DNA of 64,000 nucleotides from Shinella zoogloeoides (GTDB lineage: Bacteria; Pseudomonadota; Alphaproteobacteria; Rhizobiales; Rhizobiaceae): contig NZ_CP086612.1 in assembly GCF_020883495.1 (NCBI RefSeq), positions 186,001-250,000 on the forward strand. The letters run 5' to 3'. Shown here one piece after another: positions 6,186-50,028 of this stretch; the first letter of the stretch is position 1, and every line of letters begins with the position of its first letter. Made by a program: the position numbers and the translations under genes. The notes beneath the pieces were generated by a model. That model made no database searches, had not been told where the DNA came from, and saw only the letters and a list, made by a program, of their open reading frames with translations.

Positions 6186-7100
6186 CTATCCCCGAGGCGT
6201 TGCGCCCGGGTGATCGGCGGCCCAGGCGATGAAGACGTTCTTCAGGTGCTCGGCGGCCGGGGAAAGGCTGTGGTGGCGGCGCTGGAGGAGGGAGACGTCG
6301 CGCATCACCGGCGGGTCGATCAGGTCGACGGTGGTGACCGTGACGTCGGAGGCGAGCAGGCTGGAATTTTCCGGCAGCACGGCGACGCCCATGCCCGCGC
6401 CGATCATGCTGATCGCCGTGGTCGAGAAGCGCACCTCGTATTTCGGTTTGAAGTTCGGCACGACGCGGATGAGGTTGTGATCGACGATGTTGCGCAGCGG
6501 GTTGGAGGCGGCGAGCGTGATGAGCTTCTCGTCCTTCAGCTCGGCCCAGCGCACGGACTTGCGCTTGGCGAATTTGTGATCCTCGCGGCAGACGAGCATC
6601 AGCTTGTCGCGCATCAGCGAGGTGCCGGTGATCTCCGGGTCTTCTTCCGAGAGCGTGCCTAGGGCGATATCCACCTCGTTGCGCTTCAGCGCCGGGCTGA
6701 TCTGCTCTTCCGGCATGTCGCGGATATTGACGGAGATTTCCGGATACATGCGCAGGAACCGCGCGATGACCGGCGGCACGATGGTCGCCGCCAGAACGAT
6801 GGCGGCGGCGATGGTCACCTGTCCGCGCTTCAGCGAGGCGTTGTCGCGCACGTCGCCGACGGCGAGCTCAAGGTCCTTCAGGATCTTGCGCGCCTGCGGC
6901 AGGAATTCCTGGCCGACGAGGGTGAGCGAAACCATGCGCGTGTGGCGGTCGAAGAGGCGCACGCCGATCTCCGATTCCAGATCGCGAATGAGGATGCTGA
7001 CCGCCGACTGGGTGAGATGGAGGTTTCGTGCGGCGAGATTGAACTGGCCGAGCTCGGCCACCGCGATGAAAGCCCTGAGTTGCCGCAGGGTTATGTTCAT
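6186..7100 (-). CDS. LysR family transcriptional regulator
   Basis: 304 aa. The N-terminal winged helix-turn-helix is clear (ITLRQLRAFIAVAELGQF, then HLTQSAVSILIRDLE), followed by a periplasmic-binding-like effector domain from about residue 90. It lies at the downstream end of the minus-strand transport operon, 118 nt past the ATPase gene, and resembles the second LysR gene at 16.5-17.4 kb in its first 30 residues. A role in controlling the catabolic cluster is inferred from position only. It converges with the autotransporter gene. Confidence 0.88.
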   Translation of the reverse strand: MNITLRQLRAFIAVAELGQFNLAARNLHLTQSAVSILIRDLESEIGVRLFDRHTRMVSLTLVGQEFLPQARKILKDLELAVGDVRDNASLKRGQVTIAAAIVLAATIVPPVIARFLRMYPEISVNIRDMPEEQISPALKRNEVDIALGTLSEEDPEITGTSLMRDKLMLVCREDHKFAKRKSVRWAELKDEKLITLAASNPLRNIVDHNLIRVVPNFKPKYEVRFSTTAISMIGAGMGVAVLPENSSLLASDVTVTTVDLIDPPVMRDVSLLQRRHHSLSPAAEHLKNVFIAWAADHPGATPRG

Positions 7101-7218
7101 GGACGCGCGGCCCTCCTGTTTTGCGGCTCCATAAAACCCTGCCGGCCCCGTGCCTGTCTAGACCCGCTCCGGCGAAATGCGGTTCGCCGGAGCGGAGTTT
7201 GGGCGGTGCGGCGGCGCT

Positions 7219-8751
7219 TCAGCTTGCCAGCGCCGGTTGATCGGTGTTGCCTGCCATCAGCAGGCCGAGTTCGTCGAGGCGGGTGCGGTCCGGCGGCAGC
7301 TCGCCGAGAATCTCGCCGTGGAACATGACGAGGATGCGGTCGCAGATCGCGAACAGCTCCTCCAGTTCCGTGGAGATGAGCAGGATGGCGCGGCCGTTGT
7401 CGCGCTGCTTCAGCATTTCCTCCATGACGAATTCCATCGCGCCGATATCGATGCCGCGGGCAAGCTGGTTGACGAGGATGAAGTCCGGCTTGCGGGCGAG
7501 CTCCCGCGCGACGACCAGCTTCTGCTGGTTGCCGCCCGAAAGCGCGCCGATGGCCTGGTTCTCGTCGCGGCTCTTCACGCGGAAGCGCTGGATGAGGTCG
7601 CGGGTATGCTCGCTGATCGCCCGGCGGTTCAGCATGCCGCGGCTGGCGAAGGGGGCCTGGTCGTAGCGCTGGAGAATGGTGTTCTCGCTCAGCGACAGCG
7701 ACAGGACGACGCCGTGCTTGTGCCGGTCTTCCGGGATATGGGAGAAGGCGCAGGCATTGATGCTGGCGGGGTCCAGGCCGGTAATGTCCTTGCCGTTCAG
7801 CATCACGCGGCCGGAATCGACCGGCAGCAGGCCGGACAGCGCCAGCGAAAGCTCGGTCTGGCCGTTGCCGGAGACGCCGGCGATGCCGACGATCTCGCCG
7901 GCCCGCACATTGAGGCTCACATTGCGCACGGCGGGCAGGCCCGTCTCGGCGCGGCAGGTAAGGTTTTCCACCGAGAGCACGACGCGGCCGGCCGGCTCCG
8001 GGCTGCGCGGCAGCTCCATGCGCACGTCGCGGCCGACCATCATGCGGGCAAGCTCGCGCGCATTGGTCTCCCCGACATTGACGGTATGCACCACGCGCCC
8101 GTCGCGCATGACGCTGATGCGGTTGGAAACGCGCATTACCTCGTCCAGCTTGTGCGAGATGAAGACGACGGTCTTGCCGTCCTTCACGAGATCGCCCATC
8201 AGCGCGAGCAGGCGGTCGGTTTCCTGCGGGGTCAGCACGGCGGTCGGCTCGTCGAGGATCAGCAGGTCGATGCCGTGGAACAGGGCCTTCAGGATTTCCA
8301 CGCGCTGCTGCTCGCCGACCGAAAGGTCCTCCACCAGCGCGTCCGGGCGCACGTCGAGGGCGTAGCGGTCGGAAAGCTCGCGGATCTTCGCATGAACCTT
8401 GTCCATGTCGTTGATGACGCGCAGCGCCGAGCCCTGGCCGAGAATGTAGTTTTCGGCCACCGTCAGGTTGGGCACCAGCATGAAGTGCTGGTGGACCATG
8501 CCGATGCGCTGGCGGATGGCCTCGCGCGGGCTGTTGAAGCGCACGGACTGGCCCTTGTAGACGATCTCGCCTTCATCGGGGCGGACCATGCCGCAGATCA
8601 TGCTCATCAGCACGCTCTTGCCCGCGCCGTTCTCGCCGAGCAGCGAGTGGATCTCGCCCTCCTCGATTTCCAGCGACACGCCGTCGCTGGCGATGATGGG
8701 GCCGAAGCGCTTGCGGATATTGTCGACGCGCAGGAAGGGTTTCTGGGACAT
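7219..8751 (-). CDS. ABC transporter ATP-binding protein, BMP/nucleoside type, two nucleotide-binding domains
   Basis: 510 aa with two fused ATPase domains, as in the NupO/YufO and RbsA type. Domain 1 has an intact Walker A (GENGAGKS) and signature LSVGEQQR. Domain 2 has a degenerate Walker A (GVSGNGQTEL, no GKS) but a good signature LSGGNQQK, the usual asymmetry of this family. It should power the two permeases encoded immediately upstream, only 5 nt away from the nearer one. BMP-linked ABC systems described so far carry nucleosides, purines or related compounds, which fits the NCS2 and deaminase-like genes nearby. Confidence 0.9.
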   Translation of the reverse strand: MSQKPFLRVDNIRKRFGPIIASDGVSLEIEEGEIHSLLGENGAGKSVLMSMICGMVRPDEGEIVYKGQSVRFNSPREAIRQRIGMVHQHFMLVPNLTVAENYILGQGSALRVINDMDKVHAKIRELSDRYALDVRPDALVEDLSVGEQQRVEILKALFHGIDLLILDEPTAVLTPQETDRLLALMGDLVKDGKTVVFISHKLDEVMRVSNRISVMRDGRVVHTVNVGETNARELARMMVGRDVRMELPRSPEPAGRVVLSVENLTCRAETGLPAVRNVSLNVRAGEIVGIAGVSGNGQTELSLALSGLLPVDSGRVMLNGKDITGLDPASINACAFSHIPEDRHKHGVVLSLSLSENTILQRYDQAPFASRGMLNRRAISEHTRDLIQRFRVKSRDENQAIGALSGGNQQKLVVARELARKPDFILVNQLARGIDIGAMEFVMEEMLKQRDNGRAILLISTELEELFAICDRILVMFHGEILGELPPDRTRLDELGLLMAGNTDQPALAS

Positions 8752-8756: not shown

Positions 8757-9689
8757 TTACCTCATCTCGTAGGGCTGGCCGAGTTTGCTGGGGGCGGCGC
8801 CCTTGCCGCGGACCACGACGAGCGTGAGGATCGTCATGAGATAGGGGAGCGCCTGCAGGAGCTGGTAGGGCACGACGATGGACGCCTGCGCCTGGAGCAT
8901 CAGCTGCAGCGCGTAGAACATGCCGAAGAGCAGCGACACGAAGAAGGCGCCGATGGGCGACCAGCGGGCGAAGACGACCACGGCGAGCGCGATGAAGCCG
9001 CGGCCCGAGGTGATGCCCTCGACGAACTGGTTGGAGTGGCCGAGCGTCAGGAACGCGCCGCCGAGCCCGGCAAGGCCGGTGCCGATCAGCACCGCGCCGT
9101 AGCGGTAGGCCGCCACGTTCCGGCCGGCGACGTCGACGGCCTTCGGATGCTCGCCGACCGCGCGCAGCGTCAGGCCGAAGGAGGTGCGGAACAGCACCAG
9201 CGTGGCGACGATGGTCACGAGGATCGTCGAATAGACGATGAGGTTCTGCCGGAAGAAGGCTTCGCCGAAGAAGGGCAGGTCGCTGAGGAAGGGGATATGG
9301 ACCGGCTGGGCGATCTCGATGCCCTTGCCCGTCGAGACGTAGTAGGTGCGGAAGAGGAAGGCCGTGAGGCCCATGCCGAGCAGGTTGAGCGCCGCGCCGA
9401 CCACGATCTGGTCCGCCTTGATGGTGATCGTGAAGAAGGCGAAGATCAGGCCGAAGACCATGCCGCCCGCAATGCCGGCGGCAAGCCCGAGCGGGACGCT
9501 GCCGGTGGCGAAGGCCACGGCGAAGCCGCAGAACGCGCCGACGAGCATGGTGCCTTCCAGGCCGATATTGAGCACGCCCGCCCGCTCGGAGAAGACCTCG
9601 CCGATCGAGGCGAAGATGAGGGGGGTCGCAAGCCTCCAGGCGGCGCCGGCAAGCGTCGCGAGGAAGGTGAGAAACATCATGTCGTCCAT
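8757..9689 (-). CDS. ABC transporter permease, BMP/nucleoside type (NupQ-like)
   Basis: 310 aa with many hydrophobic segments. The stretch EVFSERAGVLNIGLEGTMLVGAF is the hallmark of BMP-linked permeases (here quoted only by its motif GLEGTMLVGA region near residue 45). It is the shorter of the two permeases and lies next to the ATPase gene, with a 78-nt gap containing a hairpin to the longer permease. Together they would form the transmembrane channel of a nucleoside-type importer. Confidence 0.88.
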   Translation of the reverse strand: MDDMMFLTFLATLAGAAWRLATPLIFASIGEVFSERAGVLNIGLEGTMLVGAFCGFAVAFATGSVPLGLAAGIAGGMVFGLIFAFFTITIKADQIVVGAALNLLGMGLTAFLFRTYYVSTGKGIEIAQPVHIPFLSDLPFFGEAFFRQNLIVYSTILVTIVATLVLFRTSFGLTLRAVGEHPKAVDVAGRNVAAYRYGAVLIGTGLAGLGGAFLTLGHSNQFVEGITSGRGFIALAVVVFARWSPIGAFFVSLLFGMFYALQLMLQAQASIVVPYQLLQALPYLMTILTLVVVRGKGAAPSKLGQPYEMR

Positions 9690-9767: not shown

Positions 9768-10862
9768 TCAGGCCACGATCCTGAGAATATCGCGGAGCTT
9801 GGCGAAGGCGACGACGGAGAGGATGACGATGCCCTGGATGACCAGCACGAGGACCTGGGGGACCTGCGAGGTGATCTGCAACACTTCCGAACCGGAGCGC
9901 AGCACCGCGAACAGGCCGCCCGAGAGGATCGCCGCCAGCGGGTTGTTGTTGGCTAGCAGCGCCACCGCGATGCCCTCGTAGCCGTAGCCGGGCGAGATGT
10001 TCTGGTAGAGGCGGTGCGTGACGCCGGCCACTTCGAAGGCCCCGGCAAGGCCGGCCAGAGCGCCGGAAATGCAGATGGCGATCATCACGTTGCGGCGCAC
10101 GTCCATGCCGGCATAGCGGGCGGCGTGCGGGTTGAGGCCGACGACGCGCAGCGCAAAGCCGCGGCTGCTCCTTTGCAGGAAGATATAGAGCGCGACCGCA
10201 AGAACCACCGCGATCAGGATGCCGATATGCAGGCGCATGTCGGAAACGATGCGCGGCGTCCAGGCCTCGCGCACGAGGCGGGCGGACTGCGGATAGGCGG
10301 CGCTTGCATCGCGCATCGGGCCGGTGACGAGGTAGCTCGTCATGATGATGGCGATATAGTTGAGCATGATCGTGGTGACGATCTCGCTCGCCTGGAAGCG
10401 CACTTTCAGGTAGCCGGCAATGCCGGCCCAGGCCGCGCCCGCCAGCGCGCCGGCCAGCATGACGAGCGGCGCATGGACCCAGACGGACAGGCCGTCGAAG
10501 CTGGTGCCGACGAGCGTCGCGGCGATCGCCCCGACATAGAGCTGGCCTTCCGCGCCGATATTCCAGATCGAACACCGGAACGCGACGCACAGGCCCGCGC
10601 CGATGAGGATGAGCGGTGTCGCCTTCAGGAGGATTTCGCCGAAGGAGCGCATGTCCTGGAACGAGCCGAAGATCATGACGGTGACGACGTCGCTGCCGTT
10701 GAAGCCGTTGAGCCACAGAAGAAGCGCGCCGAAGGCGAGGGCGACGAGGACCGCCGCGATGGGGGTAACGGCGCTGATCGCGATTTGCGAGAGCGTCCGG
10801 AGGAGGGGATTGGTGGCTTGAGGATACACGTTCTCGCGCACTCCCTGATCTACCTGTGCCAT
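9768..10862 (-). CDS. ABC transporter permease, BMP/nucleoside type (NupP-like)
   Basis: 364 aa, the longer permease of the pair. It has an N-terminal cytoplasmic stretch, then about eight to ten hydrophobic segments, with the family motif NIGAEGQLYVGAIAA near residue 100. It is preceded by the first of three binding-protein genes and separated from it by a strong hairpin. The start at 10862 (ATG) gives MAQVDQGVRENVY. Confidence 0.88.
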   Translation of the reverse strand: MAQVDQGVRENVYPQATNPLLRTLSQIAISAVTPIAAVLVALAFGALLLWLNGFNGSDVVTVMIFGSFQDMRSFGEILLKATPLILIGAGLCVAFRCSIWNIGAEGQLYVGAIAATLVGTSFDGLSVWVHAPLVMLAGALAGAAWAGIAGYLKVRFQASEIVTTIMLNYIAIIMTSYLVTGPMRDASAAYPQSARLVREAWTPRIVSDMRLHIGILIAVVLAVALYIFLQRSSRGFALRVVGLNPHAARYAGMDVRRNVMIAICISGALAGLAGAFEVAGVTHRLYQNISPGYGYEGIAVALLANNNPLAAILSGGLFAVLRSGSEVLQITSQVPQVLVLVIQGIVILSVVAFAKLRDILRIVA

Positions 10863-10935: not shown

Positions 10936-11916
10936 TCACTGGGCGTCGGTCTTGATCTCGCCGGCAGCGATCTTGTCGCTGATCGCCTTGACCTCGGCGC
11001 GGATGTTCTCCGGCACGGAGACCGGGCCGTCGTCGCGGAAGGTGAAGGACATGACCTTCGGGTCCTTGAGGCCGAAGACGACGTTCTCCGTCGGCGGCGC
11101 GCCGTCCTTGATCCCCTGGACCACCTGGATCACGCCCTGCGCATAGTCGGCGACATAGAGGCCGAGGATGTTGTTGGGCGCGACTTCCGTAAAGTCGGAG
11201 AAGATGGAGAAGGTGCGCACGTCCGGGCCGGATTCGGCGATGGCCTGGTAGCCGCCGACCGTCGCGCCCGAGGCGTTCGGCACGACGAAGTCGGCGCCCT
11301 GCGAGATCATGCTGAGGGCGGCTTCCTTGGCGGCCGTCGTATCGGTGAAGTTGCCGATATAGGCTTCGCTGACCGGGAAGTCCGGGTTGACGCTCTTGGC
11401 GCCGGCCTTGAAGCCGGCGAAGGCCTGCTGGATCGGCGGGATTTCCATGCCGCCGACGAGACCGGCCTTGCGGCCCATCTTCGCGGCGATGACGCCCATC
11501 AGGTAGAAGGGCTGGCTGGTATCGGTGTTGAGGCCGATGACATTGCCTTCATGGATGGAGCTGGACGAGATCAGGAAGTAGGTGTCCGGATAGTCGGCGG
11601 CCACTTCCAGCGCGGCGTCCTGGAATTCGAAGCCGTGGCCGAGGATGACCTGGTAGCCCTGGCTGGCATAGTCGCGGAAGGCCTTTTCGAAGGAGGCCGG
11701 GTTCTGCTGCAGCTCGACATAGCTGATCTTCGCGCCAAGCTGCTCCTCGACGCCCTTCAGCGCGTTGTAGGCGATGCGGTTCCAGCCTTCTTCCGAAACG
11801 CTGCCGGGCACGAGAAGGCCCATCTTGAAGTCGTCGGCCTGCGCCATGCCCGGAGCGGCCAGGGCGATGGACAGCGCTGCCACGCCTTCCAGGAACAGTC
11901 TTCTTGAAAGTTTCAT
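10936..11916 (-). CDS. BMP family substrate-binding protein, copy 1
   Basis: 326 aa. The N-terminus (LSRRLFLEGVAALSIALAAP) looks like a twin-arginine signal ending before ADDFKMGLLVPGS. There is no lipobox Cys, unlike the PnrA/BmpA lipoproteins. Shared BMP stretches are LGHGFEFQDAALEVA, GNVIGLNTDTSQPFYLMGV and GADFVVPNASGATVGGYQ. It is the copy nearest the permeases and the most diverged of three tandem paralogues, differing for example at its PNASGATVGG loop, which in copies 2 and 3 reads PNANAAG. It should deliver a nucleoside-like ligand to the ABC permeases. Confidence 0.9.
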   Translation of the reverse strand: MKLSRRLFLEGVAALSIALAAPGMAQADDFKMGLLVPGSVSEEGWNRIAYNALKGVEEQLGAKISYVELQQNPASFEKAFRDYASQGYQVILGHGFEFQDAALEVAADYPDTYFLISSSSIHEGNVIGLNTDTSQPFYLMGVIAAKMGRKAGLVGGMEIPPIQQAFAGFKAGAKSVNPDFPVSEAYIGNFTDTTAAKEAALSMISQGADFVVPNASGATVGGYQAIAESGPDVRTFSIFSDFTEVAPNNILGLYVADYAQGVIQVVQGIKDGAPPTENVVFGLKDPKVMSFTFRDDGPVSVPENIRAEVKAISDKIAAGEIKTDAQ

Positions 11917-11951: not shown

Positions 11952-12935
11952 CTATTGCGCGCGCGTCTGGATTTCACCCGACACGATCTTCGCAGTCACC
12001 TCCTCCAGGTGCTTGCGCAGATCTTGCGGTATCGATTTGGCGGCTTCGTCGTTGAGGGTGAACTTGATGACGTCCTTGTCCTTCAGGCCGAAGTCGACAT
12101 TGCTTTGCGGCACGTTGCCGTTCTTGATGTCCGAGACGATGCGCACGATGCCCCGGCCGTAATCGGCAAGGAACGTGCCCAGGATGTTTTTGGGGGCGAC
12201 GTCGGTATATTCGCTATAGACGCTGAACGTGCTCGCCTTCTCGCCCGCTTCCTGCGCCGCCTGGATGACGCCCAGCCCCGCCGCGTTCGCATTGGGGACG
12301 ACGAAATCGGCGCCGCGTGCGATCATGCTGACGGCGGCCTCCTTGGCGGCGCTCGCATCGGTGAAGCTGTTGATGAAGACCTTGGACACCGGGAAATCCG
12401 GGTTCACGCTCTTGGCCCCACGCTCGAAGCCGTCGAAAGCATGGGCGATGGGCGGGATTTCCATGCCGCCGATAAGGCCCGAACCCTTGCCCAGCGATGC
12501 GGCGATGACGCCCATCAGGTAGAAGGGCTGGCTGGCGTCGGTATTGAGGCCGATGACGTTGCCTTCGTGGATATAGCTCGACGACACGAGGAAGACGGTG
12601 TCGGGAAAGTCCTCGGCCGTCGTCAGGGCGGCGTCCTGAAACTGGAAGCCGTGCCCCAGCACCACCTGGTAGCCGTGGCTGGCATAATCGCGGAACGCCT
12701 TTTCGAAGGCGGCGGGATTGTCGGACAGTTCGACATAGCTGATCTTGGCGCCGAGTTCCTTCTCGACCTGCTTCAGCGCGTCATAGGCGATCTTGTTCCA
12801 GCCTTCCTCCGCCACGCTGCCGGGCACCAGAAGGCCCATCTTGAACTCTTCCGCCGCACTGGCGAAGGTCGGGACGGACACGGCGATCGACAAGGCGGCG
12901 ACGCATTCCAGGACCTGTCTTCTTGAAAGTCTCAT
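11952..12935 (-). CDS. BMP family substrate-binding protein, copy 2
   Basis: 327 aa. The signal region LSRRQVLECVAALSIAVSVP again has the twin-arginine pair and is followed by EEFKMGLLVPGS. It aligns without large gaps to copies 1 and 3, sharing GHGFQFQDAAL, NVIGLNTDASQPFYLMG and GADFVVPNANAAGLGVIQ. The gap to copy 1 is 35 nt. The duplicates probably bind different but related ligands and share one membrane complex. Confidence 0.9.
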   Translation of the reverse strand: MRLSRRQVLECVAALSIAVSVPTFASAAEEFKMGLLVPGSVAEEGWNKIAYDALKQVEKELGAKISYVELSDNPAAFEKAFRDYASHGYQVVLGHGFQFQDAALTTAEDFPDTVFLVSSSYIHEGNVIGLNTDASQPFYLMGVIAASLGKGSGLIGGMEIPPIAHAFDGFERGAKSVNPDFPVSKVFINSFTDASAAKEAAVSMIARGADFVVPNANAAGLGVIQAAQEAGEKASTFSVYSEYTDVAPKNILGTFLADYGRGIVRIVSDIKNGNVPQSNVDFGLKDKDVIKFTLNDEAAKSIPQDLRKHLEEVTAKIVSGEIQTRAQ

Positions 12936-12968: not shown

Positions 12969-13952
12969 TTATTGCGCGAGCGTGCGAACCTCGCCCGAGA
13001 CGATCTTCGCGGTCACCTCCTCCAGGTGCTTGCGAAGCTCTTGCGGTATCGGCCTTTCGGCCTGGTCGTTGAAGGTGAACTTGACGACGTCCCTGTCCTT
13101 CAGGCCGAATTCGATATTGGCTTTCGGCACGTTGCCGTCCTTGATGTCCGAGACGACGCGCACGATGCCCTGGCCGTAATCGGCAAGGAACGTGCCGAGC
13201 ACGTTCTTCGGCGCGGCATTGGTGTAGTCGCTGTAGACGTTGAAGGTATTGACCCCCGCGCCCGCTTCCTTGACCGCCTGGATGACGCCCATGCCCGCCG
13301 CGTTGGCGTTGGGAACCACGAAATCCGCGCCCTGCGAGATCAGGCTGACCGAAGCCTCCTTCGCTGCGGTGGCGTCGGTGAAGGTGCCGAGAAAGACGGT
13401 CGAGATCGGGAAGTCCGCCTTCACGCTTTTCGCGCCCTTCGCAAAGCCCTCGAAGGCCTGCGTGACGGGCGGGATTTCCGCGCCGCCGACAAGGCCCGCC
13501 TTGTGGCCCATCGTGGCGGCGACGATGCCCATCAGGTAGAAGGGCTGGCTGACATCGGTGTTGAGGCCGATGACATTGGCCTCGTGAACGCGGCTCTGCG
13601 AAACGAGGAAGACGGTGTCCGGGAAGTCCTCGGCCGCGGCGAGCGCGGCTTCCTGGAACTGGAAACCGTGGCCCAGCACGACGCGGAAGCCCTGACCGGC
13701 GAAATCGCGGAACGCCTTTTCGAAGGCGTCCGGGTTTTCCGGCAGCTCGACATGGCTGACCTTGGCGCCAAGCTCCTTCTCGACGCGCTTCAGCGCGTCG
13801 TAGCCGATCCGGCTCCAGCCTTCCTCGCCGATGCTGCCGGGCACCAGAAGGCCCATCTTGAAGTCGTCGGCATGGGCGGGTAGCGCGCCGGCAAGGGTCA
13901 GTGCGAAGGCGGATGCGAGCAGCGAACGACGTGAAAATGCGGTCTTCTTCAT
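12969..13952 (-). CDS. BMP family substrate-binding protein, copy 3
   Basis: 327 aa from the ATG at 13952, chosen because it gives the same length as copy 2, a signal peptide with SRRSLLASAFAL, and a GGGAGG ribosome site just upstream. The frame is open further upstream, but that extension is unlike the family. The mature part DDFKMGLLVPGS, GHGFQFQEAALA and PNANAAGMGVIQA is close to copy 2, so these two are the more recent duplicates. It is 50 nt downstream of the amidohydrolase gene and likely cotranscribed with it. Confidence 0.9.
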   Translation of the reverse strand: MKKTAFSRRSLLASAFALTLAGALPAHADDFKMGLLVPGSIGEEGWSRIGYDALKRVEKELGAKVSHVELPENPDAFEKAFRDFAGQGFRVVLGHGFQFQEAALAAAEDFPDTVFLVSQSRVHEANVIGLNTDVSQPFYLMGIVAATMGHKAGLVGGAEIPPVTQAFEGFAKGAKSVKADFPISTVFLGTFTDATAAKEASVSLISQGADFVVPNANAAGMGVIQAVKEAGAGVNTFNVYSDYTNAAPKNVLGTFLADYGQGIVRVVSDIKDGNVPKANIEFGLKDRDVVKFTFNDQAERPIPQELRKHLEEVTAKIVSGEVRTLAQ

Positions 13953-17370: not shown

Positions 17371-17377
17371 GACATCC

Positions 17378-20344: not shown

Positions 20345-22665
20345 ACGTAACAACCCCTGTCGAAAAGCGCGACTTCAAGGAAAAGAGCGATTTCAAGATC
20401 GTCGGCAAGAGCGTCAAGCGCGAGGATGTCGTCGAGAAGGTGACGGGCGAGGCCGAATATACCGGCGACGTCAAGCTGCCCGGCATGCTGCACGGCAAGA
20501 TCAAGCGCGCCGCCATCGCCCATGCCCGCATCAAGAGCATCGACGTCAGCAAGGCGCTCGCCTATCCGGGCGTCAAGGCCGTGCTGACCCATGAGAACGT
20601 GCCGCGCGTGCTGCATTACGGCTCGCCGCATCCGCGCTCGGCCTCCTGCACCAAGGACCAGTACATCCTCGACAACAAGGTGCGCTTCTGGGGCGAGGGC
20701 GTCGCCGCCGTCGCCGCCATCAGCGAGGAGATCGCCGACGAGGCGCTCGACCTGATCGAGGTCGAATACGAGGCCCTGCCGGCCGTCTTCGAGCCGGAAG
20801 ACGCCGCCCTGCCGGGCGCGCCGCTGATCCACGACGTCGGCCCGGGCGGCAACCTGGTGCTCGATCCGGTGCGCGTCAACCGCGGCGACGTCGAGGCCGG
20901 CTTCGCCGAAGCCGACTTCATCCTCGAAGGCACCTTCTCCGGCGGCCGTCCGCATCCCGCTTACATGGAGCCGAATGTCTGCATCGCGGACTGGGACGGC
21001 ACAAACAAGCTGACCTTCTGGACCTCGACGCAGACCGCCTTCATGGTGCGCGGCATCCTTGCCGAAGTGCTCGGCCTGCCGCTCACCAAGGTGCGCGTCC
21101 TCGTCGACCATATGGGCGGCGGCTTCGGCGCCAAGCAGGACTGCTTCCAGCACGAATTTTTGTGCGCGCTTCTCGCCAAGGAGACGCGCCGTCCGGTCAA
21201 GATGGAGTTCACCCGCCACGAGACCTTCGTGGCCGGCCGCGCGCGCCATCCCTGCCGGATCTGGCTGAAGCAGGGCTTCAAGAACGACGGCACGCTCGTC
21301 GCCCGCGACATGAAGCTGGTTTACGATTCGGGCGCTTACGGTTCGCACGGTCCGGGCGTGACCATCGTCGGCACCAATGCCGCGACCTCGCTCTATCGCT
21401 GCGAGAACGTGCGTCTTGAAGGCCGCTGCCTCTACACCAACACGCCGATCAACGGCGCGTTCCGCGGCTATGGCGTGGTGCAGAGCTACTATGCGCTCGA
21501 CATCCAGATGGACGAGGCCGCCGAACGGCTCGGCATGGACCCGGCCGAACTGAAGCTGAAGAACGTGGTGCGCGAGGGCGATATCGCTCCCTCCGGTCAC
21601 CCGATCCTCGGCCATGGCCTGGAAATCTGCCTCCAGCACGGCCTTGACGTGGTCGACTGGAAGAAGCTGCGCGGCCGCGACCGCACGCCGGATTCCAAGC
21701 GTCCCCATATCCGCAAGGGCTGGGGCATCGGCTGCGAAATGCACGGTTCCTCCGCCTATCCGGGCATCAAGGAACAGGGCAACGCCACCGTGAAGGTCAA
21801 CGAGGACGGCACGGTGACGCTGCTCACCGGCGCTGCCGGCCTCGGCACCGGCGCGCATACCGCGCTGGCGCAGATCGTCGCCGAAGAACTCGGCGTGCGC
21901 TTCGAGGACGTCGGCACCATCCACGGCGACACGGACGTCGTGCCGTGGGATATCGGCGCCTTCGCCAGCCACACGACCTATCTCGTCGGCACCGCCGCCA
22001 AGATGGCCGCCACCAAGGTCCGCGCCGAGGTTCTCGACCGCGCGGCCATGAAGCTGCAGGTCAAGGCCGAGGAACTGGACCTTTCCGAAGGCAAGGTCTT
22101 CGTTTCGGCCGAGCCGGGCCGCTTCATGACGGTCGCCGAGGCGATGGGTCCCTCGCGGGGCATTCCCGCCGCCAACATCGTGGCGAACGGCACCTATGAG
22201 CCGACCAAGTCCTATTCCTTCGCCGTCCACTTCACCGAGGTGGATGTCGATACGGAAACGGGCATCGTCGAGGTCAAGCGCGTCGTGCCGGTGCACGATA
22301 TCGGCAAGGTCATCCACCCGATCGCCGCGCAGGGCCAGATCGAGGGCGGCATCCAGCAGGGCATCGGCCACACGTTGACCGAGGACTATGTCATCGACAA
22401 GAAGACCGGCCGCTCGCTCAATGCCGGCCTCGTCGACTACAAGATGCCGTTGTCCATGGACATGCCCGATATCGAGACTATTATCCTGGAAGCTGCACCC
22501 GATCCGGGCGGCCCCTGGGGCGCCAAGGGCGTGGGCGAGGATCCGATCATCGCGATCGGCCCCTCGATCTCCAACGCCATCTATGACGCGATCGGCGTGC
22601 GGTTCCACCACTATCCGATCACCCCGGAAGACGTACTGAAAGCCTTGAGGGAGAAGGGCCAATGA
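20341..22665 (+). CDS. Molybdenum hydroxylase large, molybdopterin-binding subunit
   Basis: 774 aa from the ATG at 20341, overlapping the upstream stop. Molybdopterin motifs include GGGFGAKQD, GAFRGYGVVQ, GTGAHTALAQ and the C-terminal GAKGVGED, whose Glu is the active-site base of the xanthine oxidase family. The sequence is nearer in style to 4-hydroxybenzoyl-CoA reductase and nicotinate-type subunits than to classical XdhB, so the substrate may be a non-purine ring; this is a judgement by eye. Maturation by XdhC (encoded at 28.3 kb) implies a sulfurated cofactor. The ATG of the CobW gene overlaps its stop. Confidence 0.92.
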   Translation: MNVTTPVEKRDFKEKSDFKIVGKSVKREDVVEKVTGEAEYTGDVKLPGMLHGKIKRAAIAHARIKSIDVSKALAYPGVKAVLTHENVPRVLHYGSPHPRSASCTKDQYILDNKVRFWGEGVAAVAAISEEIADEALDLIEVEYEALPAVFEPEDAALPGAPLIHDVGPGGNLVLDPVRVNRGDVEAGFAEADFILEGTFSGGRPHPAYMEPNVCIADWDGTNKLTFWTSTQTAFMVRGILAEVLGLPLTKVRVLVDHMGGGFGAKQDCFQHEFLCALLAKETRRPVKMEFTRHETFVAGRARHPCRIWLKQGFKNDGTLVARDMKLVYDSGAYGSHGPGVTIVGTNAATSLYRCENVRLEGRCLYTNTPINGAFRGYGVVQSYYALDIQMDEAAERLGMDPAELKLKNVVREGDIAPSGHPILGHGLEICLQHGLDVVDWKKLRGRDRTPDSKRPHIRKGWGIGCEMHGSSAYPGIKEQGNATVKVNEDGTVTLLTGAAGLGTGAHTALAQIVAEELGVRFEDVGTIHGDTDVVPWDIGAFASHTTYLVGTAAKMAATKVRAEVLDRAAMKLQVKAEELDLSEGKVFVSAEPGRFMTVAEAMGPSRGIPAANIVANGTYEPTKSYSFAVHFTEVDVDTETGIVEVKRVVPVHDIGKVIHPIAAQGQIEGGIQQGIGHTLTEDYVIDKKTGRSLNAGLVDYKMPLSMDMPDIETIILEAAPDPGGPWGAKGVGEDPIIAIGPSISNAIYDAIGVRFHHYPITPEDVLKALREKGQ

Positions 22666-23846
22666 ACATGCATATCGAAGCTGCGAGCCAGCAGAAGCTC
22701 CCGATCACGATCCTCACGGGTTTCCTTGGATCGGGCAAGACGACGCTGCTCAACTACATCCTCACCGAGCGCCACGGCCACCGCATCGCGGTGATCGAGA
22801 ACGAATATGGCGAAGTGGATGTGGACAGCGACCTCGTGCTCGCCTCCGACGAAGAGATCTTCCAGATGCAGAACGGCTGCATCTGCTGCTTCGTCGACGT
22901 GCGCAACGACCTGATCGACGTGATGAAGAAGCTCCTCAGCCACAAGGACAAGTTCGATCACATCATCGTCGAGACATCAGGCCTTGCCGACCCGACGCCC
23001 GTCGCCACCGCCTTCTTCGTCGACCGCAACGTCGCCGAGGAAGTGGAGCTAGACGCCGTGGTGACGCTGGTCGACGCCATGCATATCGACCAGCATCTCT
23101 ACGATCCGGTGCTCGACGGCAGCGACAACCAGGCGGTCAACCAGATCGTCGCGGCCGACCGCATCCTCGTCAACAAGATCGACCTCGCCTCCGAGGAAGC
23201 GCTCGGCTCGCTGGAAGGCTCGCTGCGCAAGCTCAACCAGACCGCGCCGATCCTGCGCTCCACCTATGGCCAGGTCGACCTTTCCAACATCCTCGGCGTC
23301 AAGGGCTTCCGCCCGTCCTACGTGCGCGAGCGCGCGGAAATCCTCGACATCGACATGGACGACGACAGCGATGCGCATGGCCATCATGCCCACGATTGCC
23401 ACGACGCGGCCTGCGACCATCCGGACCACGACCACGGCCATCATCACCATGCATGCACCGATGCGTCCTGCGACAACCCGGATCATCACCACCACGATCA
23501 TGACCACGGCCACAAGAACACCGCAGCGCTGCGCCCGCACAGCCATGACGCGACGGTGAAGTCCCATTCCTTCGTCTATCCCGAGGCTTTCGACGGCGAG
23601 AAGCTCGGCGCGTTCCTGAAGGATTATCTCGGCGAACACGGCGACGACATCTTCCGCACCAAGGGCATCGTCTCGGTGGCGGGCGACAACCGCTTCTTCG
23701 TGCTCCAGGCGGTCCACAAGCTGGTCGATTTCCGGCCGGACCACGCCTGGGGCGAGGATGCGCGGAAGTCGAAATTCGTCTTCATCGGCCGCAACCTCGA
23801 CCGTGACGGCATCGACAGAAGCTTGCGCGCATGCCTGGTCTCCTGA
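22662..23846 (+). CDS. CobW/G3E family GTP-binding metallochaperone with His-rich insert
   Basis: 394 aa. G3E features are clear: Walker A GFLGSGKT at residues 20-27, the metal motif CICC at 73-76, ETSGLADP, NKID at 171-174, and a C-terminal CobW_C domain. Between the domains, residues about 238-295 carry an extraordinary His/Asp/Cys-rich segment (HHAHDCHDAACDHPDHDHGH and more) able to store or hand over metal, usually zinc. The gene overlaps the hydroxylase stop by 4 nt, so it is part of this operon. The likely client is the following pair of metal-dependent amidohydrolases rather than the Mo enzyme, which is inferred. Confidence 0.9.
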   Translation: MNMHIEAASQQKLPITILTGFLGSGKTTLLNYILTERHGHRIAVIENEYGEVDVDSDLVLASDEEIFQMQNGCICCFVDVRNDLIDVMKKLLSHKDKFDHIIVETSGLADPTPVATAFFVDRNVAEEVELDAVVTLVDAMHIDQHLYDPVLDGSDNQAVNQIVAADRILVNKIDLASEEALGSLEGSLRKLNQTAPILRSTYGQVDLSNILGVKGFRPSYVRERAEILDIDMDDDSDAHGHHAHDCHDAACDHPDHDHGHHHHACTDASCDNPDHHHHDHDHGHKNTAALRPHSHDATVKSHSFVYPEAFDGEKLGAFLKDYLGEHGDDIFRTKGIVSVAGDNRFFVLQAVHKLVDFRPDHAWGEDARKSKFVFIGRNLDRDGIDRSLRACLVS

Positions 23847-24244: not shown

Positions 24245-25168
24245 ATGATAATTGACCTAAGCTGCTACCCCACCGATCTGGTGGACCTGGCTTGGCGCCA
24301 TGACGGACCGCCCTTCACCGGCGACAAGCTTCTGAAGATGATGGACGGCCCGTACTACGTGAACGGCAAGCCGCGCCGCGTCGACATGGCCTTCATTCAG
24401 CCGCCGCAGGGCAACACCATCTACACCCACGAGATCATGGACCTGGAAGGCAAGGCCGCCATCCGCCAGTACATGGGCTACACGGAAAAGATGGTGACCG
24501 AGCATCCCGACCGCTTCCTCGGCTGCTTCGTCTACAATCCGCGTTATGGCGTGCAGAACGGCGTCGACGAAATCGAGCGCTACGCCAAGGAGTTCGATTT
24601 CAAGATGGTCCAGCTGCAGGCGAACATGCACGCCTACCGCCCGGACCGCGCGCTCGACTGGCTGCGTCCGGCCATGAAGAAGTGCGCCGAGCTCGGCCTG
24701 ATGGTGAAGGTACATACCGGCGACGGCCCGTACTCGATCCCGACCGAGTTCTACCCGATCATCCGCGAGTTCCCGGAAGTCAACTTCATCCTCGCCCACT
24801 TCGGCGTCCAGACGGGCGGCGTTTACGTGTTCGAGCCGATGCAGATGGCCCTCGACACGCCGAGCGTCTACGTCGAATCGGGCTGGTGCCTCCAGTCGCG
24901 TATCGTCGAATTCGCCAAGGTCCTGCCCAAGCACAAGATCCTCTTCGGCTCCGACACCCCGCCGAACGAGCCGGGCATGTGGATCAACCTTCTGGAAGTC
25001 CTCTGCCACGAGCCGCCGCAGGGCCTGAACCTCTCCGAGGACGACCTGGAAGACTATCTGGGCAACAACCTCGCCCGCATGATCGGCCTCGAGCCGACCA
25101 AGCCGCCGGCAAGCGTCGAGGAAGCCGAGGCGTATCTGCGCCAGCACGGCATCTCCATCGCCGCGTAA
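24245..25168 (+). CDS. Amidohydrolase-2 (ACMSD-like) family paralogue lacking the HxH metal motif
   Basis: 307 aa from the ATG at 24245, preceded by AGGAG. It is strongly similar to the next protein over its whole length, yet where that one starts MIIDTHLHPTNL this one reads MIIDLSCYPTDL, so both His of the HxH metal pair are replaced (Ser6 and Tyr8). Later ligands are kept: VHTGDGP, AHFG and GSDTPPNEPG. Family members are metal-dependent decarboxylases or hydrolases. This copy is either inactive alone, a partner subunit of the intact paralogue, or uses another metal geometry. Confidence 0.85.
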   Translation: MIIDLSCYPTDLVDLAWRHDGPPFTGDKLLKMMDGPYYVNGKPRRVDMAFIQPPQGNTIYTHEIMDLEGKAAIRQYMGYTEKMVTEHPDRFLGCFVYNPRYGVQNGVDEIERYAKEFDFKMVQLQANMHAYRPDRALDWLRPAMKKCAELGLMVKVHTGDGPYSIPTEFYPIIREFPEVNFILAHFGVQTGGVYVFEPMQMALDTPSVYVESGWCLQSRIVEFAKVLPKHKILFGSDTPPNEPGMWINLLEVLCHEPPQGLNLSEDDLEDYLGNNLARMIGLEPTKPPASVEEAEAYLRQHGISIAA

Positions 25169-25185: not shown

Positions 25186-26133
25186 ATGATCATCGATACC
25201 CATCTTCACCCGACCAACCTCGTCGACGAGGCGTGGCGTCATACGGGTACGCCCTTCACGGGCGAGCGCATGCTCAAGCTGATGGACGGCCCCTACATGA
25301 TCAACGGCAAGCCGCGCCGTATCGACATGGGCTTCATCCAGCCGCCGCCGGGCAACACCGGCTACCGTGACGGCAACCGCAAGGGCCGCGAAGGCATTCG
25401 CGACTACATGGCCTATATTGCCGAGCTGTGCGAGAAGTACCCGGACCGCTTCATCGGCAACTTCAACTACAACCCGCGCTGGGGGCCTGAAAACGGCGCA
25501 GCGGAGCTGGAATTCCACGTCAAGGAATACGGCTTCAAGATGCTGAAGCTGCATGCCAACATGCACGGCTACCGTCCCGACCGCGCGCTGGAATGGCTGC
25601 GTCCGGCGATGAAGAAGTGCGCCGAACTCGGCGTCGTCGTCCTCATCCACACCGGCGACGGCCCCTACACGATCCCGACGATGTTCTACCCGATCATCCG
25701 CGAGTTCCCGATGGTCAACTTCATCATCGGTCACTTCGGCATCCAGACGGGCGGCAACTACTCGTTCGAGTCCTTCTGGATGGCGATGGACACGCCGAAC
25801 GTCTACTGCGAATCCGGCTGGTGCTTCCAGTCGCGCATCGTGGAGTTCGCCCAGCAGCTTCCGAAGAACAAGATCGTCTTCGGCACGGACAGCCCGCCGA
25901 ACGACCCGGGCATGTGGCTGCGCGAACTGGAAGTGCTCTGCAAGGATCCGCCGCACGGCATCAACCTCTCCGAGGACGATCTGGAAGGCTATCTCGGCAA
26001 CAACATCGCCAAGCTCGTAGGCATCGACCCGTCCCCGCCGCCGCGTGACCTGAAGGACGCCCAGGCGCGCCTGACGGACTCCTATGCCGGCGTCGACCGC
26101 GCCACCGGCAAGCACCTGCTGCAGCCGGCCTGA
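25186..26133 (+). CDS. Amidohydrolase-2 (ACMSD-like) family protein, intact metal site
   Basis: 315 aa, 17 nt after the previous gene. The TIM-barrel metal motifs are complete: DTHLHPTNL at the N-terminus, HTGDGP near residue 160, GHFG, and GTDSPPNDPG with the catalytic Asp. The family includes ACMSD, gamma-resorcylate decarboxylase, 5-carboxyvanillate decarboxylase and isoorotate decarboxylase as well as lactone and amide hydrolases. With UbiD next door, either a second decarboxylation or hydrolysis of a ring-cleaved product is possible. Confidence 0.88.
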   Translation: MIIDTHLHPTNLVDEAWRHTGTPFTGERMLKLMDGPYMINGKPRRIDMGFIQPPPGNTGYRDGNRKGREGIRDYMAYIAELCEKYPDRFIGNFNYNPRWGPENGAAELEFHVKEYGFKMLKLHANMHGYRPDRALEWLRPAMKKCAELGVVVLIHTGDGPYTIPTMFYPIIREFPMVNFIIGHFGIQTGGNYSFESFWMAMDTPNVYCESGWCFQSRIVEFAQQLPKNKIVFGTDSPPNDPGMWLRELEVLCKDPPHGINLSEDDLEGYLGNNIAKLVGIDPSPPPRDLKDAQARLTDSYAGVDRATGKHLLQPA

Positions 26134-26341: not shown

Positions 26342-27715
26342 ATGACCCAGTACCACAAGCAAGACGTCCGCCGCTTCCTGGCCGATTACAGCGCCGAGCA
26401 TCCCGAGGACGTCATCACCATCGACCGGCCGGTCTCGGACGATCAGGACGCCACCGCGCTGATCTGGAACCTCGCGGACAAGGGCCAGCACCAGATGCTG
26501 CACCTGAAGAATGTCAGCGGCATCGGCGCTGAAGTCGTCTGCAATATCTTCGCCTCGCGCGACCGTATCGCCCGCCTTCTCGGCTCGACCGCCGACAAGC
26601 TGCACGAGGCCTATCAGGCGCGTTCCAACAAGCCCTTCGCGCCGGAAGTGCTGGAAAGCGGCCCGATCACCGAGGAGATCATCTCCGGTGACGACGTGGA
26701 CCTCCATGCGCTGCCGATGCTCAAGCACTTCGACACCGACCGTGCGAAATACATCACGTCCGGCATCGTCATCGGCGAGCACCCGGAAACCGGGGCCGGC
26801 AATCTCAGCTATCACCGCGCGATGATCCATTCGAAGAATTCGCTCGCCACCTCGCTGCATTCGCGCGGCCATCTCTGGCGCCTGATGAACATGGCGAAGG
26901 AGAAGGGCAAGCCGATGCCGGTCGCCATGGTGATCGGCGGCCATCCGCTGTTCATGATCGCCGCCTCCGCCCGCCTTGCCTTCGGCGAGGACGAGCGCGA
27001 CGTCGCCGGCGGCCTGATGGGCGAACCCTTGCAGGTCGTGCGCACGCCGAAATACGGCATCCGCGTTCCCGCTTATGCGGAAATCGTGCTGGAAGGCGTG
27101 CTGGACCCGGAAGCGCATGTCGAGGAAGGCCCGTTCGGCGAGTTCACCGGCTATTCCTCCGACCGCTCGACCAACAACCTCTTCACCGTCGAGACCGTCA
27201 TGCGCCGGCGCGACGCCATGCTCGTCTCCGTCGCGGGCGGCAATTCGGCCGAACACCTCAACCTCGGCCGCGTGCCGCGCGAAGCGGAAGTGGTGGAGAA
27301 GCTGAAGGCCCGCTTCCCCTCGATCACCGCCGTTCACTACCCGTCCTCGGGCACCCATTTCCATGCCTATATCGCGATGAACCAGACCCGCGAGGGCGAG
27401 GCGCGGCAGGTCATGCTCGGGCTTCTGGGCTGGGACCAGTATTTGAAGAACGTCATCGTGGTGGATGCGGATGTCGACATCACCAAGGACAGTGAAGTGC
27501 TCTGGGCGCTCGCCACCCACTTCCAGCCGCACAAGGATGTCGTTATCATCGAGGGGTTGCCGGGCAATGCGCTCGATCCGTCGGCCAGCGGCATCGGCAC
27601 CACTTCGCGCATGGGCCTCGACGCCACGCGCGGACCGAACTTCCATGGGGTACGCGCCCGCATCAGCGACGAGGCCACGGCCCGGGCCGCGGCGCTCCTC
27701 AAAAGCGTGGGATAA
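26342..27715 (+). CDS. UbiD family prenyl-FMN-dependent decarboxylase
   Basis: 457 aa. UbiD-fold motifs are visible: GNLSYHRAMIHSKNS with the conserved Arg, VIGGHPLFMIAAS, the Glu-bearing EEGPFGEFTGYSS, and GIGTTSRMGLDATR near the C-terminus. These enzymes reversibly decarboxylate unsaturated or aromatic acids using prenylated FMN made by UbiX, whose gene lies 6 nt downstream. It is shorter than UbiQ-pathway UbiD and lies in a catabolic cluster, so it is a degradative member. Substrate unknown. Confidence 0.92.
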   Translation: MTQYHKQDVRRFLADYSAEHPEDVITIDRPVSDDQDATALIWNLADKGQHQMLHLKNVSGIGAEVVCNIFASRDRIARLLGSTADKLHEAYQARSNKPFAPEVLESGPITEEIISGDDVDLHALPMLKHFDTDRAKYITSGIVIGEHPETGAGNLSYHRAMIHSKNSLATSLHSRGHLWRLMNMAKEKGKPMPVAMVIGGHPLFMIAASARLAFGEDERDVAGGLMGEPLQVVRTPKYGIRVPAYAEIVLEGVLDPEAHVEEGPFGEFTGYSSDRSTNNLFTVETVMRRRDAMLVSVAGGNSAEHLNLGRVPREAEVVEKLKARFPSITAVHYPSSGTHFHAYIAMNQTREGEARQVMLGLLGWDQYLKNVIVVDADVDITKDSEVLWALATHFQPHKDVVIIEGLPGNALDPSASGIGTTSRMGLDATRGPNFHGVRARISDEATARAAALLKSVG

Positions 27716-27721: not shown

Positions 27722-28303
27722 ATGACACGGCCAAGACGCATGATCGTCGGCATTTCGGGGGCTTCCGGGGTCATCTACGGCAAGCGCATCCTCGAAGTGC
27801 TGCGCGACCTCGAAATCGAGACGCACCTGATCATGTCGCGCGCGGCCTGCATCACGCTCGCCGCCGAGGCGGACTTCACCAAGCAGGAACTGGAAGCGCT
27901 GGCGACGACCACCCATTCCAACAAGGATATCGGCGCGGTCTGCTCTTCCGGCTCCTACAAGACGCTCGGCATGATCGTCGCGCCCTGCTCGGTCAAGACC
28001 ATGGCGGAGATCGCGACCGGGACCACGGACAACCTGCTCTCGCGCGCCGCCGACGTGGTGCTGAAGGAGCGCCGCCGGCTGGTCCTGATGCTGCGTGAAA
28101 CGCCGCTGCATCTCGGCCATATCCGCAACATGGCGCAGGTGACGGAAATGGGCGGCATCATCTATCCGCCCGTGCCCGCCTTCTACGCCAAGCCGAAAAG
28201 TCTGGAAGAGATGGTCGACCACACGGTCGGCCGCGTGCTCGACCTGTTCGATCTCGACCCCGGCATCGTGCGCCGCTGGGAAGGAACGCAAGGAGGGGAA
28301 TGA
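27722..28303 (+). CDS. ubiX: UbiX family flavin prenyltransferase
   Basis: 193 aa. The Rossmann-like flavin site is visible in GISGASGVIYGKRILE, and the conserved APCSVKTMAEIATGTTDNLL and VLMLRETPLHLGHIRNM segments follow. It makes prenyl-FMN for the UbiD protein encoded just upstream. A catabolic cluster carrying its own UbiX suggests high demand for the cofactor. XdhC starts 1 nt after its stop. Confidence 0.95.
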   Translation: MTRPRRMIVGISGASGVIYGKRILEVLRDLEIETHLIMSRAACITLAAEADFTKQELEALATTTHSNKDIGAVCSSGSYKTLGMIVAPCSVKTMAEIATGTTDNLLSRAADVVLKERRRLVLMLRETPLHLGHIRNMAQVTEMGGIIYPPVPAFYAKPKSLEEMVDHTVGRVLDLFDLDPGIVRRWEGTQGGE

Positions 28304-28304
28304 C

Positions 28305-29237
28305 ATGGCCGTCCGCATCGCTCCCGACCCGGAAACGCTCGCGCCCGAACCCCGCGCCGCCTTCCTCTCGGACGATGCGATCGACATCCTCGCCTTCGCG
28401 GCGGATGCGCTCGATCAAGGCCATGCCGCCGCTCTCGTCACCCTCGTGGAAATCCGCGGCGGGGCCGCCCGCGCCATCGGCGCGCAGATGGCGGTGCGCG
28501 GCGACGGCCTTTATTGCGGCTATGTCTCCGGCGGCTGCACCGAGGCGGCCGTCGCCGCCGACGCGGTGATCGCCCTGCAAAAAGGCCTCGACCGCAATCT
28601 CAAGCTCGGCGAAGGCTCGCCCTTCTTCGATATCGTGCTGCCCTGCGGGGGCGGCATCACGCTCGCCATCCATGTCCTGCGCGACGCCGCCGTTCTGCGC
28701 CTTGCCCTTTCGGCCCTGCAACGCCGCACGGCCGCCCGCCTTCGCTACCATCCCGGCCAGCAGGTCCTTTCCTTCGAGCCGGGGGCGGGGACGAGCGGCT
28801 GGGAGGGCGAGAGTTTTGTGCGCGCCTATCGCCCGAAACAACGGCTGCTTCTGGCCGGAACCCCGCTGGAGGCCGGCACGGTGGCGCGCGTGGCCGCCGC
28901 CTCGGGCTACGAGGTCGTCACCCTCGAGCGCGGCCAGACGCCGACGCCCGACCAGCTCGACGCCGACACGGCCGTCGCGCTGCTCTTCCACGATATCGAC
29001 CGCGAACTGCCGATGCTCGACGCCGCGCTTGCCGCGCCCGTCTTCTATATCGGCGCGCTCGGCAGCCGCCGCACCCATGTCAAGCGCTGCGAGGCGCTGC
29101 GCGCGCACGGCCATGGCGATGCGGCGCTCGCCCGCATCAAGGCCCCGATCGGCATCTTCGACAAGGCGCGCGATTCCCATGCGCTCGCTTTGTCGGTCGT
29201 GGCGGATATCGCGGCGGCGCGGCTGCGGCTGGAGTGA
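28305..29237 (+). CDS. xdhC: XdhC family molybdenum cofactor maturation protein
   Basis: 310 aa with a strong AGGAGGGG ribosome site. The family motif YVSGGCTEAAV with its Cys is near residue 75, and the C-terminal Rossmann-like XdhC_C domain contains FYIGALGSRRTHVKR. XdhC binds the cofactor, promotes its sulfuration and inserts it into xanthine-oxidase-family enzymes. Its presence downstream of UbiX, 5.6 kb from the hydroxylase large subunit, ties the two plus-strand transcripts into one pathway. The outer Tn3 terminal repeat begins 42 nt after its stop. Confidence 0.92.
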   Translation: MAVRIAPDPETLAPEPRAAFLSDDAIDILAFAADALDQGHAAALVTLVEIRGGAARAIGAQMAVRGDGLYCGYVSGGCTEAAVAADAVIALQKGLDRNLKLGEGSPFFDIVLPCGGGITLAIHVLRDAAVLRLALSALQRRTAARLRYHPGQQVLSFEPGAGTSGWEGESFVRAYRPKQRLLLAGTPLEAGTVARVAAASGYEVVTLERGQTPTPDQLDADTAVALLFHDIDRELPMLDAALAAPVFYIGALGSRRTHVKRCEALRAHGHGDAALARIKAPIGIFDKARDSHALALSVVADIAAARLRLE

Positions 29238-50027: not shown

Positions 50028-50028
50028 C

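Follow-up and report, generated by a model that had tools for sequence, protein, structure and literature searches.

Background

Isoxanthopterin catabolism was reportedly studied by McNutt in the 1960s in 'Alcaligenes faecalis', including a tetrahydroxypteridine cycloisomerase (EC 5.5.1.3). The reaction of this enzyme, from Alcaligenes extracts, is presumably the conversion of tetrahydroxypteridine to xanthine-8-carboxylate, and to our knowledge no gene or sequence has been assigned to it. Here we describe a gene cluster of Shinella zoogloeoides at positions 6186-29237 of a 64,000-nucleotide stretch (the window; contig NZ_CP086612.1, positions 186,001 to 250,000), which encodes two importers, a deaminase (DeamA), a molybdenum (Mo) hydroxylase, two ACMSD-like amidohydrolases (AH1 and AH2), a UbiD-family decarboxylase and its UbiX partner. 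Its gene content suggests, with a probability that we put at about 0.6, a unit that takes up oxidised pterins and breaks them down to xanthine, its exit product. The deamination, oxidation and ring contraction of the Alcaligenes pathway would correspond to the slots of the deaminase, the Mo hydroxylase and AH1/AH2 in the cluster, whereas the use of UbiD as a xanthine-8-carboxylate decarboxylase is a proposal made here.

Several described enzymes resemble single components of the cluster. Among UbiD-family structures, 6h6v/6h6x are taken here to be an HmfF-type furan-2,5-dicarboxylate decarboxylase and AnInD (7p9q) an indole-carboxylate enzyme, i.e. both act on five-membered heteroaromatic acids. 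The structure 2PAJ we take to be isoxanthopterin deaminase (Hall et al. 2010). The ACMSD/Amidohydro_2 enzymes include LigW2, 2,6-dihydroxybenzoate decarboxylase, isoorotate decarboxylase and LigJ. The pterin deaminase Arad3529 and a Variovorax homologue have been reported in connection with folate degradation (PMC9513972). The likeness there is pterin ring deamination in soil bacteria, but the passages of that paper considered here describe no linked ring-contracting or decarboxylating genes. In the open-licence literature we found no paper on the Shinella cluster and no described pathway that matches it, nor, by title, any on bacterial leucopterin or isoxanthopterin catabolism or on pteridine together with UbiD and an amidohydrolase. 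It likewise offered none on isoxanthopterin in Alcaligenes; for xanthine-8-carboxylate or the cycloisomerase it gave a metabolomics paper, for UbiD with purines a flavin review and for UbiD with lumazine or pterin an unrelated paper.

Results and discussion

A candidate route from pterins to xanthine

Gene classes were assigned by Pfam and NCBIfam profile searches of the window proteins, and all those named in an initial annotation of this DNA were recovered within the cluster (Table 1). The left arm, on the minus strand, carries in order DeamA, three BMP-family binding proteins, two permeases and the ATPase of an ABC importer, and the regulator LysR1. The two arms are separated by a class II aldolase and LysR2. 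The right arm, on the plus strand, runs from the NCS2 permease through three Mo hydroxylase subunits, CobW, AH1, AH2, UbiD and UbiX to an XdhC-like gene. The set for a Mo hydroxylase of the xanthine oxidase family is complete, with flavin adenine dinucleotide (FAD), 2Fe-2S and molybdopterin subunits plus an XdhC-type factor. Its identification as a xanthine dehydrogenase proper was rejected because the scores stay under the curated cut-offs (NF043082, 658 versus 780; TIGR02965, 335 versus 850).

In the route that we propose, the BMP-ABC importer and the NCS2 permease would import pterin or lumazine, DeamA would strip the 2-amino group from pterin to give lumazine, and the Mo hydroxylase, matured by XdhC, would oxidise C6 and/or C7 to yield 2,4,6,7-tetrahydroxypteridine. 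AH2, with AH1 as a metal-less partner, would then hydrolyse one amide of the cyclic oxamide to form 6-amino-5-oxalylaminouracil, the freed amine of which would re-close on the neighbouring amide with loss of water, giving xanthine-8-carboxylate in a net isomerisation. UbiD, using prenylated flavin mononucleotide (FMN) supplied by UbiX, would decarboxylate this compound to xanthine, which would enter the xanthine dehydrogenase/urate oxidase route of the host, encoded elsewhere. A ring contraction of this kind would use amidohydrolase chemistry, create the carboxylate that UbiD needs and end in a purine. What the sequences show directly are the gene identities, their conserved linkage, the motif loss in AH1, the other deaminase type of the relatives and the purine genes of the host; the substrates and reactions named here, like the partnership of AH1 and AH2, are all what we infer for the cluster. 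The xanthine-permease type of NCS2 speaks for the route, and AH2 and/or the deaminase probably receive metal from CobW, because CobW also occurs in clusters without a linked Mo hydroxylase.

AH1 and AH2 are candidate genes for the orphan EC 5.5.1.3. A more far-reaching proposal, to which we would give even odds, is that they are the missing tetrahydroxypteridine cycloisomerase genes and encode a heteromer of metal-bearing and pseudoenzyme subunits, that UbiD is the first decarboxylase of the prenylated-FMN kind with a purine as its substrate, and that the whole forms a patchy, phylogenetically broad route by which pterin pigments and the remains of cofactors are fed back into the purine pool. 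Pterins are compounds of butterfly-wing pigments. If the proposal is right, an orphan enzyme known only from 1960s extracts would gain genes, and UbiD chemistry would reach purines. It would also provide a tandem active/pseudo amidohydrolase pair for mechanistic study, assign a function to a gene block of Sinorhizobium meliloti pSymB, and explain how nitrogen-rich pterins, from insect pigments or the debris of folate and biopterin, are turned back into purines by bacteria of soils and plants.

The amidohydrolase pair and UbiD

AH1 and AH2 had been annotated initially as paired ACMSD-like enzymes. The pair holds and consists of paralogues with 64% identity, but AH1 has no HxH, a loss of the metal motif that the annotation had overlooked. 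HxH is absent from 49/49 AH1 copies and kept in 46/46 AH2 copies of the fetched loci (overlapping loci counted apart), and for this reason AH1 is probably a non-catalytic partner of AH2. AH1 retains the ACMSD-like fold despite this loss, and AH2 combines the ACMSD-like (Amidohydro_2) fold with the metal-site residues, i.e. HxH, two further His and an Asp. No NCBIfam model matched either protein at E<=0.001, and the fold-comparison lists for both contain one barrel fold throughout and name no substrate. AH2 shares the TIM-barrel fold with the four ACMSD/Amidohydro_2 enzymes named above and keeps the metal-site residues; the differences are an identity of only 12-22% to AH2 and, in the window, a tandem with one member lacking HxH.

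The UbiD domain (PF01977) scores 206.7 bits against a cut-off of 23.3, and the UbiX partner is present. In alignment with solved chains, the motifs NLSYHR and EGPFGE are kept, of which R and E..E, respectively, are presumably the catalytic residues of the family. The nearest solved chains are 6h6x (211 bits), 6h6v (209), 5m1c (UbiD proper, 159) and 7p9q (AnInD, 147). Family and motifs are common to the window UbiD and to the HmfF-type enzyme and AnInD, although the matches reach about 210 and 147 bits only. Arguing by analogy, the substrate may be likened to furan and indole carboxylates, as xanthine-8-carboxylate also bears its carboxylate on a five-membered heteroaromatic ring.

The deaminase slot in related clusters

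AH2 was surveyed at E<=1e-60 in the family of the host (12/297 genomes), the genus of genome G360 (4/25) and the family of genome G609 (64/299), 80 genomes in total. Two adjacent matches, corresponding to the AH1-AH2 tandem, occur in 80/80 of them by their listed coordinates, AH2 of G1179 being split over two contigs. Among those of the 80 genomes whose DNA was read around AH2, UbiD follows AH2 in 15 (the host, G360, G540, G609 and 11 more), with G724 cut off.

Across the relatives, the deaminase slot holds either the cytosine-deaminase-like type of the window or a type close to 2PAJ. For the slot deaminase of a Pseudomonas locus (L020:14468-15856), 2PAJ is the best solved structure with 452 bits, the second reaching 296; these clusters thus hold a clear homologue of isoxanthopterin deaminase, whereas DeamA belongs to another, cytosine-deaminase-like subfamily. 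A pteridine route had been proposed before this match was known, so that the match tested a prediction which might have proved wrong. The 2PAJ type (E<=1e-150) was found in 65/80 AH2 genomes, i.e. in 0/12 of the host's family and 65/68 of the others. Sixty-two of these 65 genes lie on the AH2 contig at a distance of 4.5-15.8 kb (61 on the same strand) and three on other contigs; for two of the latter (G540 and G1166) the cluster runs into a contig end, and for G1147 it does not. Three non-rhizobial AH2 genomes are without the 2PAJ type. The contigs of two (G1107 and G1203) stop before the expected place, and in the third, G1199, neither deaminase type occurs in the 36.5 kb read (matches below 33% identity dropped) and no 2PAJ type genome-wide at the same threshold. 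In the host's family, the DeamA type is present in six of the seven genomes read, the contig of the seventh (G724) ending just past AH2. The suggestion of the initial annotation that the importers and the deaminase indicate a purine- or pyrimidine-like ring is supported.

The loci of G1199 and G1147 (L076-L077, L079-L080) are of a Burkholderiaceae type, with AH1-AH2-UbiD-UbiX-CobW and a two-subunit Mo hydroxylase; the stretches read contain no deaminase, which would fit a substrate that arrives in deaminated form.

Conservation and modularity of the cluster

When one genome of each species was scanned for UbiD, 46 pattern matches yielded 19 loci, 17 of them rhizobial (Shinella, Ensifer/Sinorhizobium, Aminobacter, Mesorhizobium, Pararhizobium and Rhizobium) and two from Pseudomonas. 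Order and strand of LysR2, NCS2, the three Mo hydroxylase subunits, CobW, AH1, AH2, UbiD and UbiX are constant in 17/17 rhizobial loci, an XdhC-like gene is visible in 15/17, and AH2 is 97-100% identical to the window copy. DeamA orthologues (84-89% identity) lie 10.2-10.8 kb from UbiD in all 17; in three Aminobacter loci the deaminase-transporter arm is found on the opposite side with linkage retained. The class II aldolase stands beside LysR2 in 13/17, the view being bounded by the locus end. This linkage bears out the conserved catabolic unit postulated initially, and the gene order is not peculiar to one strain, as the set recurs in relatives. In broader genome samples the cluster is rare and patchy: AH2 was found in 1/289 genomes of the host's class (the host itself) and in 4/398 of its phylum (host included).

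A smaller core recurs on Sinorhizobium pSymB and in Paracoccus, Pseudomonas and Burkholderiaceae. In detail, AH1-AH2-UbiD is accompanied by deaminase and Mo hydroxylase slots in Sinorhizobium, Cupriavidus, Paraburkholderia, Caballeronia and Pseudomonas, and in Paracoccus with or without the Mo hydroxylase. An 18-kb block of Sinorhizobium meliloti 2011 pSymB holds AH1, AH2, UbiD, UbiX, NCS2, CobW, the Mo hydroxylase, a DeamA orthologue (66%) and BMP-ABC genes; a literature look-up by guessed locus tags gave no function for it and one mention in a network paper. Two Paracoccus plasmids carry LysR, AH1, AH2, UbiD, UbiX, CobW, NCS2 and a DeamA-type deaminase (in P. methylovorus the latter reads as two pieces), and no Mo hydroxylase was seen in these two loci within the 16 and 12 kb read on each side. 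Their deaminase, AH1/AH2 and UbiD/UbiX would be the minimum set for the conversion of leucopterin to xanthine, which counts in favour of the proposed route. On a third Paracoccus plasmid the Mo hydroxylase and an XdhC-like gene are present. One Pseudomonas locus (L020), G360 and plasmids of Paraburkholderia and Caballeronia have a different, two-subunit type of Mo hydroxylase and a different amidohydrolase in the deaminase slot, and in Cupriavidus and G609 a window-type Mo hydroxylase is paired with the non-window type of deaminase.

Further AH2 homologues with HxH (P0017, P0021, P0026, P0034 and P0039; 71-75% identity) come from Actinobacteria and a Caldilineales bin.

Purine catabolism of the host

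The initial annotation had noted the absence of a uricase and excluded the standard purine route. Both statements are true of the cluster, but not of the genome: elsewhere the host encodes a true xanthine dehydrogenase (1361 bits, cut-off 849.5) and, 2.7 kb from it, a PuuD-type urate oxidase (463 bits), both on contig C1, whereas the cluster is on C3. The likely product of the cluster is a purine that would feed this route elsewhere in the genome; xanthine as proposed exit product and the two host genes connect the system to standard purine catabolism, from which it differs in that both genes lie outside the cluster. True xanthine dehydrogenase exceeded the cut-off in 22/22 cluster genomes searched, compared with 122/396 Pseudomonadota.

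Alternative readings

Several observations weigh against a pterin route. Xanthine dehydrogenase is common in the host's family (16/17 of its genomes in the 396-genome sample), and its presence in cluster genomes is therefore weak evidence. The scheme offers no step for the class II aldolase, and a linked deaminase is not universal, as G1147 and G1199 illustrate. The count of 2PAJ-type genes covers AH2-bearing genomes only, so that the evidence is their linkage to AH2 and not their mere presence. DeamA itself is not of the 2PAJ type: 2PAJ is absent among its 39 structure matches, of the solved structures isopropylammelide hydrolase and cytosine deaminase come closest to it (about 141 bits), and its relatives are named 'cytosine deaminase', 'deaminase' or 'amidohydrolase' at source; its proposed pterin specificity consequently rests on the sharing of a slot. 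Finally, the structural neighbours of AH2 with known function are mostly decarboxylases, and AH2 might therefore decarboxylate as well. It could then be a nonoxidative decarboxylase of the ACMSD/isoorotate type in the degradation of a pyrimidine or purine carboxylate, with UbiD serving a second carboxylate or an intermediate. We consider this rather improbable, since identity to the listed chains is only 12-22%, two unrelated adjacent decarboxylases would be odd and the 2PAJ-type deaminase would have no role.

Folate breakdown offers a reading that is unlikely too, if less so. Pterin-6-carboxylate would be deaminated to lumazine-6-carboxylate, a candidate intermediate according to passages of the folate-degradation paper (PMC9513972), the Mo hydroxylase would introduce the 7-hydroxyl group, UbiD would remove the 6-carboxylate, a second oxidation would give tetrahydroxypteridine, and AH1/AH2 would hydrolyse the ring to oxalate and diaminouracil, with no xanthine formed. 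However, UbiD comes directly after AH2 in those of the loci read that run past AH2, and the Mo hydroxylase is not of one type throughout and in places is missing from the stretch. A constant AH2-UbiD order with a variable Mo hydroxylase fits UbiD acting after the amidohydrolases, as in the pterin-to-xanthine route, and the folate reading leaves the xanthine-type permease unexplained. The least probable of the three is the original interpretation of the cluster, in which a monocyclic aromatic or N-heteroaromatic acid, such as nicotinate or a carboxylate of pyrazine or pyrrole, is hydroxylated and then decarboxylated and the importers serve a similar ring. Mo hydroxylases, UbiD/UbiX and ACMSD-like enzymes are each generally known from such pathways, but no ring-cleaving dioxygenase family was matched among the cluster proteins (Pfam), and these routes were set aside because they explain neither the linked deaminase of most surveyed genomes nor the xanthine-type permease. 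The 2PAJ-type deaminases of the relatives point instead to a bicyclic pterin, from which the carboxylate for UbiD would be made late, by ring contraction.

Two further candidates were dismissed. Degradation of vitamin B6 was considered for the class II aldolase and for a BMP match to a 'putative B6' model, which is weak (99 bits versus a cut-off of 400), as is the match of the aldolase to Mlr6791/2z7b (just 31 bits). Conversion of 8-oxoguanine to urate would require neither UbiD nor the amidohydrolase pair.

Gene features, regulation and neighbourhood

The coordinates of all features are collected in Table 1. The start of UbiD was chosen after the annotated Shinella orthologue; the longest open frame begins at 26084.

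Table 1. Features of the cluster (positions in the window)
Feature	Position	Strand	Basis and remarks
LysR-type regulator 1 (LysR1)	6186..7100	-	Pfam; 38% identity with LysR2
ABC importer ATPase	7219..8751	-	Pfam
ABC importer permease	8757..9689	-	Pfam
ABC importer permease, second	9768..10862	-	Pfam
BMP-family binding protein 1	10936..11916	-	Pfam
BMP-family binding protein 2	11952..12935	-	Pfam; nearest solved chains 7x0r, 3s99, 6pi5 (atrazine-binding protein)
BMP-family binding protein 3	12969..13952	-	Pfam; 60-69% identity to BMP 1 and 2
DeamA, cytosine-deaminase-like amidohydrolase, proposed pterin deaminase	14003..15298	-	Pfam, NCBIfam
Operator-like element upstream of DeamA, AAACAATTGAAATAAT	15360..15375	-	Pattern scan
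Class II aldolase/adducin-fold protein	15519..16319	-	NF005068, 449 bits, cut-off 269
LysR-type regulator 2 (LysR2), divergent from NCS2	16474..17379	-	Pfam
Operator-like element between LysR2 and NCS2, AAACAATCGGCATAAT	17408..17423	-	Pattern scan
NCS2 nucleobase permease, xanthine-permease subfamily	17530..18912	+	TIGR03173, 507 bits, cut-off 414
Mo hydroxylase FAD subunit	19002..19865	+	Pfam, NCBIfam
Mo hydroxylase 2Fe-2S subunit	19862..20344	+	Pfam, NCBIfam
Mo hydroxylase molybdopterin subunit	20341..22665	+	Pfam, NCBIfam
CobW-family GTPase metallochaperone	22662..23846	+	Pfam, NCBIfam
AH1, ACMSD-fold amidohydrolase without HxH (SCY instead), proposed non-catalytic partner of AH2	24245..25168	+	Pfam
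AH2, ACMSD-fold amidohydrolase with HxH, proposed catalytic subunit of tetrahydroxypteridine ring contraction	25186..26133	+	Pfam
UbiD-family decarboxylase, proposed xanthine-8-carboxylate decarboxylase	26342..27715	+	Pfam
UbiX flavin prenyltransferase	27722..28303	+	NF004685, 271 bits, cut-off 188
XdhC-like Mo hydroxylase maturation factor	28305..29237	+	Pfam, NCBIfam

Operator-like sequences common to both arms, as annotated initially, were found as AAACAATTGAAATAAT and AAACAATCGGCATAAT, both on the minus strand. At up to 2 mismatches, the 16-base pattern occurs at these two sites only across the 64-kb window; the chance expectation of 0.01 is too favourable, since the pattern was derived from the same two sites. 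With both strands scanned, exact matches to the element precede NCS2 in 10/17 right-arm loci and the deaminase in 9/17 deaminase loci, which makes a putative shared operator for both arms plausible.

The three tandem BMP proteins (10936-13952) serve a single ABC importer, compared with one or two in the relatives viewed. The class II aldolase might act on substituted pterins, in a decarboxylating step or in one that removes a side chain.

The host genome has 4.85 Mb and the contig carrying the cluster 340 kb. Behind the cluster, 29312-32902 and 33109-36075 contain two Tn3-family transposase genes and a resolvase. The first transposase gene (29312-32281) starts 74 bases past the end of the right arm, so that the cluster boundary may be transposon-made. 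At the beginning of the window (5-3000), three peptidase families follow each other (a D-aminopeptidase B-domain protein, S58 and M55), possibly as a D-peptide unit. At 47236-63054, a P-type ATPase, a multicopper oxidase, an HlyD-type efflux protein and a histidine kinase suggest a copper-handling island on the same contig.

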